DNA from: Candidatus Pacearchaeota archaeon
GTDB lineage: Archaea; Nanobdellota; Nanobdellia; Pacearchaeales; GW2011-AR1
DNA length: 36,224 nucleotides
NCBI GenBank assembly: GCA_018221285.1
Contig: JAAOYJ010000024.1
Location: 77,156-113,379, forward strand
Direction: 5' to 3'
Shown: one piece after another, positions 575-24,190 of the stretch
Position numbering within the stretch: the first letter of the stretch is position 1
How the letters are laid out: each line of letters begins with the position of its first letter
The notes under the pieces: model-generated
What the model was told of the DNA's origin: nothing
The model's database searches: none
The model's input: the letters and a program-made list of their open reading frames with translations, nothing else
Position numbers and translations under genes: made by a program

Positions 575-2866
575 ATGGCAAAAGAAAATAAAATACAATT
601 GAAAGTTGTTGAGGCTTTGCAGGATGATGCGTATAAAGGTATTGCTCGAATGGATGCAGAGTTAATGAGAGAGTTGGGTGTGAGACGGGGAGATGTTATT
701 ATGATTAAAGGAAGTCGTGAAACTGTTGCGATTGCTGACAGAGCTTATCCGGCAGATGTTGGGGAAGGAATAATTAGGATTGATGGGATCTTGAGAAAGA
801 ATGCAAGAGTTGGTTTAGGAGATGTTGTTGTTGTTACTAAAGCAGATATTAGAGAAGCGAAGAAGATTGTTATTGCTCCAGCACAAAAAGGAATTATGGT
901 TCAGGGAGATCCTGAAAGTTTGAAACGAGGACTTTTTGGAAGAGCAGTCTTGAAGGGAGATCTAGTTGTTTTAGGAGGAGTTCAGAGAAGAAAAGATTTA
1001 TTGTCGGATGAATTTGGGGACTTGAATGATATGTTGGGAGATATGTTAGGGAATATGGGCTTTGGAAATTTAGGAGGAGGAATCTCACAGATTCGGTTCA
1101 TGGTTGTTAATTCTAATCCTGGTAAACCGGTGATTATAACGGAAAATACAGAGGTCACGCTTAATCCTAAGGCTGTTGAGTTAACTGATGAAAAAATTCC
1201 TGAAATTAATTATGAAGATATTGGGGGGCTTAAAGAAGAGATTACGAAGATTCGTGAAATGGTTGAGATTCCTATGAAGAAGCCGGAAGTTTTTGAACAG
1301 TTGGGAATTCAACCTCCGAAAGGTATCTTGCTTCACGGTCCGCCTGGAACAGGTAAGACTTTGCTGGCCAAGGCTGTTGCAACAGAGTCGGAAGCTAATT
1401 TTATTTTGTTGAATGGTCCTGAGATAATGTCTAAATTTTATGGAGAGAGTGAGAAGAAGATTAGGGATATTTTTGAAGAGGCAGAGAAGGCTGCGCCGAC
1501 AATTATTTTTATTGATGAGATTGATGCGATTGCTCCGAAGAGAGAGGATGTGCATGGCGAGGTTGAGAGAAGAGTTGTTTCTCAGTTGTTGACAATGATG
1601 GATGGTTTGAAATCACGTGGAAGAGTTATTGTTATTGGTGCTACGAATCGGGTTAATGCGCTTGATCCTGCTTTGAGACGGCCTGGAAGATTTGATAGAG
1701 AGATTCCAATTAATGTTCCAGATAAAGATGGTAGATTGTCTATTTTGAAAATTCATACTAGGGGAATGCCTTTGAAGAATGTTGATTTGAATAAGTTGGC
1801 AGCAGTCACTCATGGGTTTGTTGGAGCAGACTTGGAATCATTGAGCAAGGAAGCTGCAATGAATGTTTTGAGGAAACATCTTGATGAAATTAATAAGCTA
1901 GATGAGGAAGAGATTCCTAAAGAGATTTTGGAGAAGTTAATTGTTAGGCATAAAGATTTTACAGATTCTTTGAAAGTTGTAAGGCCTTCTGCAATGAGAG
2001 AGGTTTTGGTTGAGACGCCGAATGTAGATTGGGATTCTGTTGGGGGTTTGGATAAGGTAAAGGAAGAGTTAAGGGAGGCTGTTGAGTGGCCAATGAAACA
2101 TCCAGGATGTTTTGAGAGAATGGGGATTCGACCGTCGAGAGGGATTTTACTTTATGGTCCGCCTGGTGTGGGTAAGACTTTAATTGCTAAAGCAGTTGCT
2201 AAGGAATCAGAAGCGAATTTTATTAATGTTAAAGGGCCTTCACTGTTGAGTATGTGGGTTGGAAAATCTGAGGAAGGTGTGAGGAAGATTTTTGAGAGGG
2301 CTAGGCAGGTTGCACCTTGTGTAATTTTCTTTGATGAGATGGATGCAATGGCGGGAAGAAGAGGAGTAGATGCGGGATCGAAAGTTACTGAAAGAGTTTT
2401 AAATCAATTGTTGGCTGAAATGGATGGGCTTGAGGATTTGAAAGATATTTTAATTATTGCTGCAACTAACAGACCGGATATGCTTGACCCTGCTGTTTTG
2501 AGGCCTGGAAGATTTGATAGGATCTTGTTAGTGAATGCTCCTGATGAAAAAGGGAGGGAGATGATTTTGAATATTCATACAAAAAAGATGAAGAAGGCAA
2601 AGGGTGTTAATCTCAAGGATATTGCTAAGAAAACAATTGGTTATACTGGTGCTGACCTGGAGGCTGTGACTCGTGAGGCAGGGATGCTTGCGTTGAGAGA
2701 GAATATCAATGCTGATGAAGTAAAGAAAAAGCATTTTGATGAGGCTTTGAAAAAGGTTAAGCCAAGTGTAACTAAGAACACGCTTGAAGTTTACAAAAAG
2801 GTTGAGGATAATTTCTTGAAATCAGCGAAGGCGGCAGTTCCAACACCGAGTAGTTATCTTGGGTGA
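575..2866 (+). CDS. cdc48: CDC48/VCP-type AAA+ ATPase
   Basis: A 763-residue two-ring AAA+ unfoldase, close to the usual archaeal length. The N-domain (about 1-200, double-psi barrel) is followed by D1 with Walker A GPPGTGKT (255-262) and Walker [10 protein letters not shown] (about 310-318), then D2 with Walker A GPPGVGKT (528-535) and Walker [10 protein letters not shown]. Arginine-finger regions (RRPGRFD and LRPGRFD) are present in both rings. Such proteins extract and unfold substrates for the proteasome and other pathways. Two oddities stand out. There is a Gly/Met/Asp-rich insert at about 141-172 at the end of the N-domain. The protein ends SSYLG, not in the HbYX motif used for proteasome docking. 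Codons for that C-terminus are duplicated downstream at 2908-2925. It is likely co-transcribed with the M23-like gene. Confidence 0.97.
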
Positions 2867-2925
2867 TTGATTCGTCCCGCCCACCTTCCCGTACGCGCTG
2901 ACGCGCGGGTAGTTATTTGGGATAG
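2849..2925 (+). repeat. Duplicated C-terminal codons of cdc48 around a GC-rich hairpin
   Basis: Copy 1 (2849-2866) encodes S-S-Y-L-G-stop (AGT AGT TAT CTT GGG TGA). Copy 2 (2908-2925) encodes G-S-Y-L-G-stop (GGT AGT TAT TTG GGA TAG), 59 nt further on. Apart from the first codon, the differences are synonymous or stop-for-stop. The 41 nt between are markedly GC-richer than the surroundings and can fold as CCCG-ta-CGCG-ctga-CGCG-CGGG (about 2888-2909). Copy 2 is not in frame with copy 1, so readthrough cannot join them. Either a small insertion supplied a recoded gene end, or allelic replacement left the old end behind. Confidence 0.6.
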
Positions 2926-13473: not shown

Positions 13474-14514
13474 ATGGGTTTAAACATACGTGACATTATT
13501 CCGCGGAAGGAGCTTGAATTTGCGAATTTGAGAGGGAAGCTTGTGGTAGTGGATGCGTTTAATATTTTGTATCAGTTTTTGTCTACGATTCGGCAGGCAG
13601 ATGGGACGCCGTTGATGGATAATCAGAAACGGATTACGAGTCATTTGTCTGGGATTTTTTATAGAAATGTTAGTTTGCTTTCAGAGGGAATTAAGTTGGT
13701 TTATGTTTTTGATGGGGAGCCGCCTGAGTTGAAAGGGAAGACGAGAGAGGGACGAGAGGAGAAGAGAGAACTTGCGAGAGAAAGATTTGAAGATGCTAAG
13801 TCGAGAGGGGATTTTGATAAAATGAGAAGTTATGGAAGTCAGTTGGTTCGGCTTGAGGATGAAATGATTGTAGAGAGTAAGGAGTTGTTGAGGGCCATGG
13901 GTGTTGCGGTTGTTCAGGCGCCGAGCGAGGGAGAAGCAGAGGCTGCCTATTTATGTAGGATAAAAGAAGATGTTTATGCGAGCATTAGTCAGGATTATGA
14001 TAGTTTGCTTTTTGGAGCTTCGAGGTTGATTCAGAATTTGACGCTCTCAAGGAGAAGGAAGACTTTTTCAGGATATGTTGAAGTGAAACCAGAGATGATA
14101 GAGTTAGAAGATGTTTTGAATAAGTTGGGAATTAATCTTGATCAGTTGATTTGTTTGGGGATTCTTGTTGGAACAGATTATAATCCTAAAGGGATTCCAG
14201 GGATTGGGCAGAAGAGGGCGTTGGATATTGTTAGAAAGTATAACCAACCTGTTTTGATTTTTGAAAGTGTTGCAGAGCAGTTGATGAGTTTGCCTGAAGA
14301 AGATCGGTTTGATTGGCAGGAAATTTTTCAATTGTTTCACAAACCTAATGTTGTTAATGCTGATTTTGAGTTTGAGAAAATTGACGAGGATAAAATAAAA
14401 GAAATACTTGTGGAGAGACATGATTTCTCAGAAGATAGGGTAAACAAACAATTAGATAAGTTGAGAGCTGTCGAGGAGAAAGCGAAACAAAAGGGGCTCG
14501 ACAAATGGTTCTGA
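13474..14514 (+). CDS. fen: Flap endonuclease 1
   Basis: A 346-residue structure-specific 5' nuclease for Okazaki-fragment processing. The N-domain begins MGLNIRDIIP with Asp27 in VVVDAFNILYQFL and a second metal Asp in YVFDGEPPELKG. The I-domain shows 'APSEGEAEAAYL' and 'SISQDYDSLLFGA'. The DNA-binding helix-hairpin-helix is GIPGIGQKRAL. The C-terminus QKGLDKWF is a PIP box for PCNA binding. After the TGA stop, the same frame runs 21 more codons and ends in a second PIP box, QKGLDKLF-TAG (to 14580). The distal stop overlaps the stop of the convergent membrane-protein gene, suggesting that it was the original gene end. Confidence 0.96.
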   Translation: MGLNIRDIIPRKELEFANLRGKLVVVDAFNILYQFLSTIRQADGTPLMDNQKRITSHLSGIFYRNVSLLSEGIKLVYVFDGEPPELKGKTREGREEKRELARERFEDAKSRGDFDKMRSYGSQLVRLEDEMIVESKELLRAMGVAVVQAPSEGEAEAAYLCRIKEDVYASISQDYDSLLFGASRLIQNLTLSRRRKTFSGYVEVKPEMIELEDVLNKLGINLDQLICLGILVGTDYNPKGIPGIGQKRALDIVRKYNQPVLIFESVAEQLMSLPEEDRFDWQEIFQLFHKPNVVNADFEFEKIDEDKIKEILVERHDFSEDRVNKQLDKLRAVEEKAKQKGLDKWF

Positions 14515-14580
14515 TTTTGTTTGCGACGAATCCACACAGTGATTCATCGGAAGCAGAAGGGACTTGATAAGTTGTTTTAG
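14485..14580 (+). repeat. Tandem PIP-box coding repeat at the fen 3' end
   Basis: Copy 1 (14485-14514) and copy 2 (14551-14580) each encode K-Q-K-G-L-D-K-x-F-stop. Of ten codons, one is identical, seven differ only at synonymous third positions, one changes Trp to Leu, and the stop is TGA versus TAG. They are 66 nt apart and in the same frame. The spacer contains an imperfect hairpin, CGACGAATC (14524-14532) with GATTCATCG (14541-14549), eight pairs and one mismatch. Confidence 0.75.
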
Positions 14581-15152
14581 ATTCCCCCGCCCTGGCCCAC
14601 ATAATGATGGGTTCTTCTTGATCTATTTGGGTTTGAAGGTCCCCGATTCATGAACCAGCCAATTATAATTAAGATAACTCCAAGAATTATTAGGCTCGCG
14701 CTTTCGTAGGTGAAGAAACTTGCAATAATCATCAAGAATCCTACTAAGTAAGGTGCTTGTCTTCGGTGTTGCCAGAAAAAGAAAAGGTAAGCTAGTCCAG
14801 CAATTACAAGAAGAACTATAATTGTGTAGATTAAATCTTCTGAGAGTCCGAGGCTGTAACCTAGATTGTAGAAAATGTTTTCAAAGTCAAATCCTGTTTT
14901 GTTGATGCCGTAGACTGCAAGGAAAGAAACACAAAATGCCACGATTCCTCCAGTTGCTTTATTATCTTTGAACATCTTTGAGGTTGAGTAGTTCACGAAA
15001 GCAAATAAAACTATGAAGATTGCAACAAGGAAAACCGTCGAAGCATCAAATTCGTTTAGCATATCGCTTAAAGAATAACTATAATAAGCACTTGCGAAGT
15101 TGATTAAGAATAATCCGATGAGAATAGTTAATAGTATCTTGCCTCTTTTCAT
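14577..15152 (-). CDS. Multi-pass membrane protein, paralogue of the next gene
   Basis: A 191-residue protein with an N-terminal signal-like hydrophobic segment (ILLTILIGLFLINFASA) followed by about five further hydrophobic helices and a short basic tail ('GPSNPNRSRRTHH') ending in Gly-rich residues. The segment order and phrases such as 'GIVAFCVSFLAVYGINKTGF' match the 360-residue neighbour ('GIVAFVASFVIIYVINRIGF'), so they are tandem duplicates. Function is unknown. A minus-strand TATA-like stretch (CTTAAAAAT) lies about 25 nt before the ATG. Its stop overlaps the distal FEN1 stop. Confidence 0.75.
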   Translation of the reverse strand: MKRGKILLTILIGLFLINFASAYYSYSLSDMLNEFDASTVFLVAIFIVLFAFVNYSTSKMFKDNKATGGIVAFCVSFLAVYGINKTGFDFENIFYNLGYSLGLSEDLIYTIIVLLVIAGLAYLFFFWQHRRQAPYLVGFLMIIASFFTYESASLIILGVILIIIGWFMNRGPSNPNRSRRTHHYVGQGGGI

Positions 15153-24069: not shown

Positions 24070-24190
24070 GAGCCTATAGCTCAGCTAGGTCAGAGCGCTG
24101 GTCTTATATGACTATGATTCGCAAGGATTATATTTTCTTGGATTCGTCTAAGAAAGCCAGAGGTCGACGGTTCAAATCCGTCTAGGCTCA
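24070..24190 (+). tRNA. tRNA-Ile (anticodon UAU) with a 46-nt intron
   Basis: The acceptor stem GAGCCTA/TAGGCTC is fully paired with discriminator A and no encoded CCA. The D arm is GCTC/GAGC, the anticodon stem CTGGT/GCCAG and the T arm GACGG-TTCAAAT-CCGTC. An intron at 24109-24154 sits at the canonical 37/38 position: the 3-nt bulges TA|T and AA|A flank a perfect 4-bp helix CTTA/TAAG, a textbook bulge-helix-bulge. After splicing, the anticodon loop is CTTATAA, anticodon UAU, reading AUA isoleucine. Most archaea instead read AUA with an agmatidine-modified CAU tRNA. The ends of the gene are partly duplicated on both sides. Confidence 0.88.
24109..24154 (+). other. tRNA intron (bulge-helix-bulge)
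   Basis: A 46-nt intron after position 37. The splice sites lie within two 3-nt bulges separated by CTTA/TAAG, and the intron continues with GAC/GTC pairing. It should be cut by the archaeal tRNA-splicing endonuclease. Confidence 0.85.

Follow-up and report, generated by a model that had tools for sequence, protein, structure and literature searches.

A palindromic mini-element probably rebuilt the 3' end of an archaeal fen1 gene and stranded the previous one

Why is the gene for the nuclease FEN1 followed, shortly beyond its stop codon, by a second copy of its own C-terminus? The locus lies in a window of 36,224 nucleotides (the whole stretch of DNA analyzed here) from a Candidatus Pacearchaeota archaeon, represented by a metagenome-derived genome (MAG) of 863 kb with an archaeal gene set (G000; 43 contigs, 82% complete, 5.8% contamination), which appears DPANN-like by size and gene content. 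A sequence-only reading had weighed two answers, namely readthrough of the stop codon and, as the more likely one, an insertion that recreated the C-terminus upstream of the old one. The latter is supported by a dispersed hairpin that lies between the two tails and by the recurrence of the same layout at many genes.

The Two Gene Ends of fen1

The fen1 gene (13474..14514, forward strand) is an open reading frame of the XPG nuclease family (Pfam XPG_N and XPG_I), and its product is 87% identical to the FEN1 of a genome of the same genus (G001, hereafter the congener). Its present C-terminus is the tail KQKGLDKWF (proximal or new tail; 14485..14514, forward strand, including the TGA stop at 14512..14514), which carries a consensus-like PIP box. 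Beyond this stop, the FEN1 frame stays open for 21 codons (14515..14577), which end in ...RKQKGLDKLF and are closed by a TAG stop (14578..14580). The tail KQKGLDKLF (distal tail, read below as resident and stranded; 14551..14580 with its stop, forward strand) thus lies in frame, 66 nt beyond its proximal counterpart. This second PIP box, which the earlier reading had pointed out, is far beyond chance: the tail pair has a stop-anchored similarity score of 40, and none of ~17,000 shuffled gene-end/downstream pairs scores as high. The overlap of the distal stop with the stop of a convergent gene was also borne out. This gene occupies 14577..15152 on the reverse strand with its stop at 14577..14579, and a Pfam search of it gave no family.

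The last nine codons of the two tails (proximal/distal) read aaa/aag, caa/cag, aag/aag, ggg/gga, ctc/ctt, gac/gat, aaa/aag, tgg/ttg and ttc/ttt. Seven of these pairs differ synonymously, as had been counted before, one is identical and one (tgg/ttg) replaces W by L. The identical run common to both tails amounts to 5 nt only (AAGGG). The distal motif is the poorer PIP box, as L replaces W at the first aromatic position, where W is found in nearly all QxxLxxWF-type FEN1 tails (~20 relatives). The proximal tail starts with the left half of an inverted repeat (X: aaacaaaa; 14485..14492, forward strand), of which the inverted copy (X': ttttgttt; 14515..14522, forward strand) is located directly 3' of the new stop; the pair reads AAACAAAA/TTTTGTTT. 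The stretch 14515..14550 folds as a stable hairpin (z-score -3.9), and a covariance model of the hairpin element described below (R1) matches 14518..14555 on the forward strand with 35.5 bits. Its conserved core CCACACAGTG (14532..14541, forward strand) comprises a bulged C, a closing pair and the loop ACACAGT.

Tail Duplications across Genes and Genomes

The C-terminus of each gene was compared with the residues preceding any stop within ~200 nt downstream. The comparison covered 856 kb of G000, almost the whole genome, together with 232 kb of the congener and 400 kb of G003, a genome of another genus. Shuffled gene/downstream pairs (for G000, 20 rounds over 863 ends) served as the null. G000 contains six tail duplications with a score of at least 32 against 0.0 expected, and likewise six at a score of at least 28 (0.05 expected). 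In one of the six (L143:11761) there is no hairpin, and the tail is simply duplicated in tandem. At a score of at least 28, tail duplications are found at 8 of 194 ends of the congener (0.05 expected) and at none of the ends of the control genome G003 (0.1 expected). The genes with duplicated tails include those of FEN1, aRF1, DnaG, a YbjQ-family protein, CDC48, RuBisCO, LemA and HtpX; HtpX and several other genes were named by eye from the sequence, the remaining families by Pfam. A restored gene end with the old end stranded behind it is present at fen1 and ~10 further genes.

At the gene for release factor aRF1, QFFNLSGAGALLRFKI and a stop are followed, 3' of the hairpin, by QFNNLSGAGALLRFVV and a stop, with most shared codons changed synonymously. 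This second C-terminus after a hairpin turned the FEN1 curiosity into a pattern. The distal aRF1 tail lies behind an extra in-frame stop, while the distal tail of LemA (58 nt) and that of DnaG in the congener are out of frame. The window itself holds a second case at a gene for a CDC48-family AAA ATPase (575..2866, forward strand), which ends in SSYLG; the distal tail SYLG (2911..2925 with its stop, forward strand) follows 59 nt after the stop, out of frame, and the insert is rich in G+C and inverted repeats, with a hairpin different from that of fen1. Likewise, DnaG, HtpX and others show the order tail, stop, insert and tail with inserts other than this hairpin. Many of these non-hairpin cases were found through protein similarity, and their synonymous excess is partly due to ascertainment; codon differences are nearly all synonymous in the tail pairs ascertained by the hairpin as well. 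EF-2 (named by eye) carries inserts at the same position in two genera, between the tail pairs KGLSENQ/KGLSENQ and KGLAENQ/KGLAENQ (each tail followed by a stop), with synonymous differences only. In G016, a genome of another genus, a truncated repeat of the last part of aRF1 (EIISTETEEGKQFFNLSG) comes after the gene end (L098).

A Dispersed Hairpin between the Tails

A genome-wide search for the loop ATCCACACAGTGAT returned three copies, each just 3' of a stop (FEN1, LemA and aRF1). The core C[C/G]AC[A/G]CAGT[C/G] (CSACRCAGTS) occurs 13 times in G000, twice in the partial congener sequence and not in G003, and the reversed core as a control gave 0/0/0. Across 17 aligned copies the loop is constant, while the stem is not conserved in sequence and covaries strongly: 26 cells are changed on both sides against 7.8 ± 2.6 expected, a number reached in 0 of 500 shuffles. 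A simple scan for stems with a 7-nt loop had overlooked the element because of the bulged C. Covariance model R1 finds 15 copies in G000, 13 in G001 and 10 in G109, and has matches in 20 of 164 family genomes and 17 of 87 genera, a patchy distribution. The element is thus short, non-coding, palindromic and dispersed, as is expected of a mini-element. An Rfam search for a known RNA family gave tRNAs only, exact pattern scans of viral contigs for carriers gave no match, and an autonomous (transposase-bearing) partner was not recognized. The sole exact 18-mer match in the genome-contig collection, in a Gemmatimonadetes MAG, is judged a chance match, as several are expected in a collection of that size.

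Hairpin copies occur after stops, upstream of starts and, in one case, in frame inside a Cbf5-like gene. The latter copy (L190 5701-5738, reverse strand; Cbf5/TruB-like, named by eye) apparently lies between the duplicated segments ERAAERYKK and VRKAVKAYKD. Another small palindromic repeat, TACCCTAAAGGGCAC[A/G]AGC, is found at the RuBisCO end of G001 and inside its Cbf5-like gene (L208 near 3085, L155 near 8150). The similarity between both flanks of the hairpin exceeds the 99th percentile of random sites in 9 (protein) and 10 (DNA) of 40 hairpin contexts, with ~0.4 expected. A gene 3' end is present on both sides of the hairpin at aRF1, LemA, RuBisCO, the YbjQ-family gene, EF-2 (two genera), a GyrB-like gene and tRNA genes. 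For tRNA-Phe of G059 (L234 1744-1880), the hairpin has the opposite orientation and is followed by an exact copy of the last 22 nt of the tRNA 3' end. As a side observation, a tRNA gene of the window spans 121 nt (24070-24190), with an Rfam match that covers the whole model, and probably contains an intron; a similar one is located at L149 17683-17810.

In most cases, the new stop is immediately followed by an inverted copy of part of the tail, with which the insert begins (FEN1, aRF1, DnaG, RuBisCO of G001, tRNA-Phe and others). Over all genes, inverted repeats around stops show no excess against a shuffled control, and hence they mark the inserted cases, not genes in general. Young sites have the flanking direct repeats of a target-site duplication, 14-49 nt in length: 24 and 49 nt in L265 and L261, 14 nt at a tRNA end in L289 and 19-20 nt at the RuBisCO end of G001. 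In G005, a 23-nt insert CAAATCAACACAGTTATTTGCAT is flanked by two copies of ATGGAGGC.AAT..GATAT.TAAAATGAAA. Runs identical at both ends, as candidates for an att core, measure 30 nt in L191 and 5-14 nt at several sites, with only the 5 nt given above at fen1. Insertion takes place beside gene ends, with a flanking duplication, a new stop and a hairpin in the 3' sequence. Two larger inserts of G000, likewise flanked by duplicated gene ends, may be related elements with cargo. In L191 (15510-16660), 803 bp with a DUF2283 gene and another small ORF separate two 3'-end copies of a gene of 96 amino acids, which are diverged upstream of the 30-nt core. In L136 (6190-6710), an insert of 439 bp with one ORF is bordered on each side by a 35-nt copy of the end of a gene for an FtsX-like permease. 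Neither insert contains a recombinase gene.

Polarity of the Tails and Origin of the New One

The polarity of the tails was read at sites where the other species has a single tail, with nucleotides counted by eye. Compared with the single HtpX tail of G000, the distal tail of the congener matches at 23 of 27 nt and the proximal one at 17 of 27; for the last 15 nt of the congener L156 gene these values are 14/15 and 10/15. In CDC48, a TTG codon of the congener is retained in the distal copy, and the proximal LemA tail of G000 is almost identical to the distal LemA tail of G001. Because the distal tail matches the single tail of the other species, these alignments show it as the resident one and the proximal tail as new at four genes (HtpX, the L156 gene, CDC48 and LemA). 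The distal tail of fen1 is most likely the old gene end as well; this polarity is taken from the loci just named and from the overlap of its stop with that of the convergent gene, as would be expected of a resident end. At fen1 itself, the congener tail matches the proximal tail at 22 of 30 nt and the distal tail at 17 of 30, and the congener gene has a different downstream neighbor. A donor of the proximal tail was not found in 180 family genomes.

Where did the new tails come from? We lean slightly towards the view that the new tail usually arrived from a related lineage together with the element, rather than being a diverged target duplication. The aRF1 tail and 28 nt of its 3' flank are 94% identical between G000 and G001, with ~83% for the gene body, and G000, G001 and G095 have a near-identical block at the DnaG tail. 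G095 belongs to another genus, its DnaG is 72% identical and the distal DnaG tails differ synonymously. A tail borne by the element explains both the aRF1 identity and the near-identical DnaG block across genera. Alternatively, target-site duplication alone would account for the layout if the hairpin inserts with long duplications of variable length (14-58 nt), the copies of which start identical and later diverge in place. This is what the young sites look like, with identical or near-identical duplicates at L265, L261, L289, L234 and the RuBisCO gene of G001, and palindromic YPAL elements similarly make target duplications of 3-26 bp (PMC2229807). Both copies are DNA-identical in the fresh cases of G001 RuBisCO, the G192 YbjQ-family gene and G059 tRNA-Phe, which fits plain target duplication, and the rare CTG codon used by both EF-2 copies of G098 suggests a common local origin. 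At the old sites (HtpX, L156), however, most synonymous positions of the proximal copy are altered, and it is the distal copy that still matches the orthologue of the other species. Neutral drift predicts the reverse of a recoded proximal tail next to a conserved, supposedly untranslated distal one, and duplication in place does not lead one to expect a near-identical proximal DnaG block across genera. We consider target duplication alone rather unlikely.

Alternative Explanations

UGA readthrough, bypass or splicing could also yield a FEN1 that carries both PIP boxes or the distal one, and the 21-codon open frame invites this thought, as does the retention of amino acids in distal tails (e.g., DnaG with KLLSL before the stop in three genomes, with synonymous changes). 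Yet distal tails are out of frame at LemA, CDC48 and DnaG of G001, an extra in-frame stop intervenes at aRF1 and the same layout is found at tRNA genes. The conserved W is gone from the distal FEN1 tail, and ~20 FEN1 relatives end once. Readthrough to a two-PIP FEN1, the other answer of the sequence-only reading, did not stand up to these observations and is very improbable. More generally, continued translation of the distal tails, an unusual alternative, would account for their conservation, though not for the cases out of frame, interrupted by stops or at tRNA genes. For the same reason, the open frame at fen1 is best seen as chance, and FEN1 would now be translated to the proximal stop only. 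Gene ends may also be replaced when DNA from a related species recombines, homologously or illegitimately, with the resident gene, in which case the hairpin would be no more than a common terminator-like sequence at the junction. The proximal tails indeed resemble alleles of related lineages, and the congener L156 gene switches from resident-like to foreign-like within its tail. This explanation is nevertheless improbable, as the same hairpin family occurs at junctions in unrelated genes, at tRNA genes, between genes and in frame in the Cbf5-like ORF. Finally, strain variants could have been merged into an assembly chimera in the metagenome bin, a concern raised by the 43 contigs, the 5.8% contamination and a second DnaG gene on contig C3. 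With the layout and hairpin recurring in genomes of other genera that were assembled independently (G001, G005, G028, G059, G095 and G098), such a chimera hardly enters into consideration. The second DnaG (L101 1552-2709, reverse strand) has a single tail and is 73% identical to that of the congener; contig C3 is possibly a contaminating contig.

Proposed Mechanism and Candidate Enzymes

On balance, we consider it probable that a palindromic mini-element inserted near the fen1 3' end, restored the gene end and stranded the old one. In the proposed scenario, a non-autonomous palindromic mini-element of 25-130 bp, in many cases with a free stem below a constant ACRCAGT loop, would insert near the 3' end of fen1. 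Recombination or strand transfer, presumably driven in trans, would take place where the tail begins, at a short core that both partners share. After the insertion, fen1 would be complete, with other final codons, another PIP box and another stop; the hairpin would come next, and behind it the previous end would persist as untranslated 3' sequence.

The enzyme that moves the element presumably acts in trans; the small inserts have no coding capacity, and the search for a mobilizing enzyme identified none. Tyrosine recombinases are encoded elsewhere in all 10 genomes examined. Cas1 (PF01867), sought as a casposase or CRISPR Cas1, is absent in 10 of 10 genomes and present in 9 of 14 controls. 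RNA-guided homing by TnpB (IS200/IS605) was set aside because PF07282 is absent in G000 (82% complete). A more far-reaching proposal is that gene-less hairpins of <150 bp home between species, moved by an enzyme that recognizes a hairpin with the ACRCAGT loop. They would target essential genes at their 3' ends, and each would bring a codon-diverged version of the end of its target, which keeps the host gene functional; we put this forward tentatively, with more doubt than belief.

Comparison with Known Systems

If true, the mini-element reading extends the integrative elements that rebuild gene ends by a class that is very small and has no genes, found in archaea of a family with reduced genomes. 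Insertions of this kind are one way in which a C-terminus, for instance a PIP box, is exchanged or rewritten. What makes the finding important is the element family more than a two-PIP FEN1, and with the element model and the occupied sites listed, the question of mobility can be tested directly. For annotation, it is a warning: where a motif recurs beyond a stop, the second copy can be the stranded end of the gene instead of a readthrough product.

A limited literature search found no report of gene-less hairpins that rebuild core-gene ends in this way, yet the parts have parallels. Insertion of prophage e14 into icd of E. coli supplies a new 3' end of the core gene and leaves the old end at the far side (PMC6379469), just as the old ends are stranded as fragments here. 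The difference is that e14 is a prophage, whereas the inserts described here are mostly 25-130 bp, gene-less and present at many genes per genome; they encode no site-specific recombinase and no integrase is linked to them. In thaumarchaeal genomes, 14 of 68 integrated elements reside in protein genes, in their 3'-distal parts, with the ORF restored and a new stop (PMC6563490). These are archaeal as well, both tRNA and protein gene 3' ends are targeted and EF-2 is a common target, but they are full-size proviruses, casposons and other elements. Casposons also make target duplications at the 3' ends of tRNA and EF-2 genes (PMC6563490); a Cas1 homologue, in contrast, is lacking in the genomes examined here. 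YPAL/RU-2, RPE and other MITE-like repeats are short bacterial palindromic repeats, and YPAL target duplications vary in length (PMC2229807). Like these, the hairpins are short, non-coding, palindromic and dispersed between and inside genes, but they combine a free, covarying stem with a constant loop, and the duplicate at their flank rebuilds a gene end.
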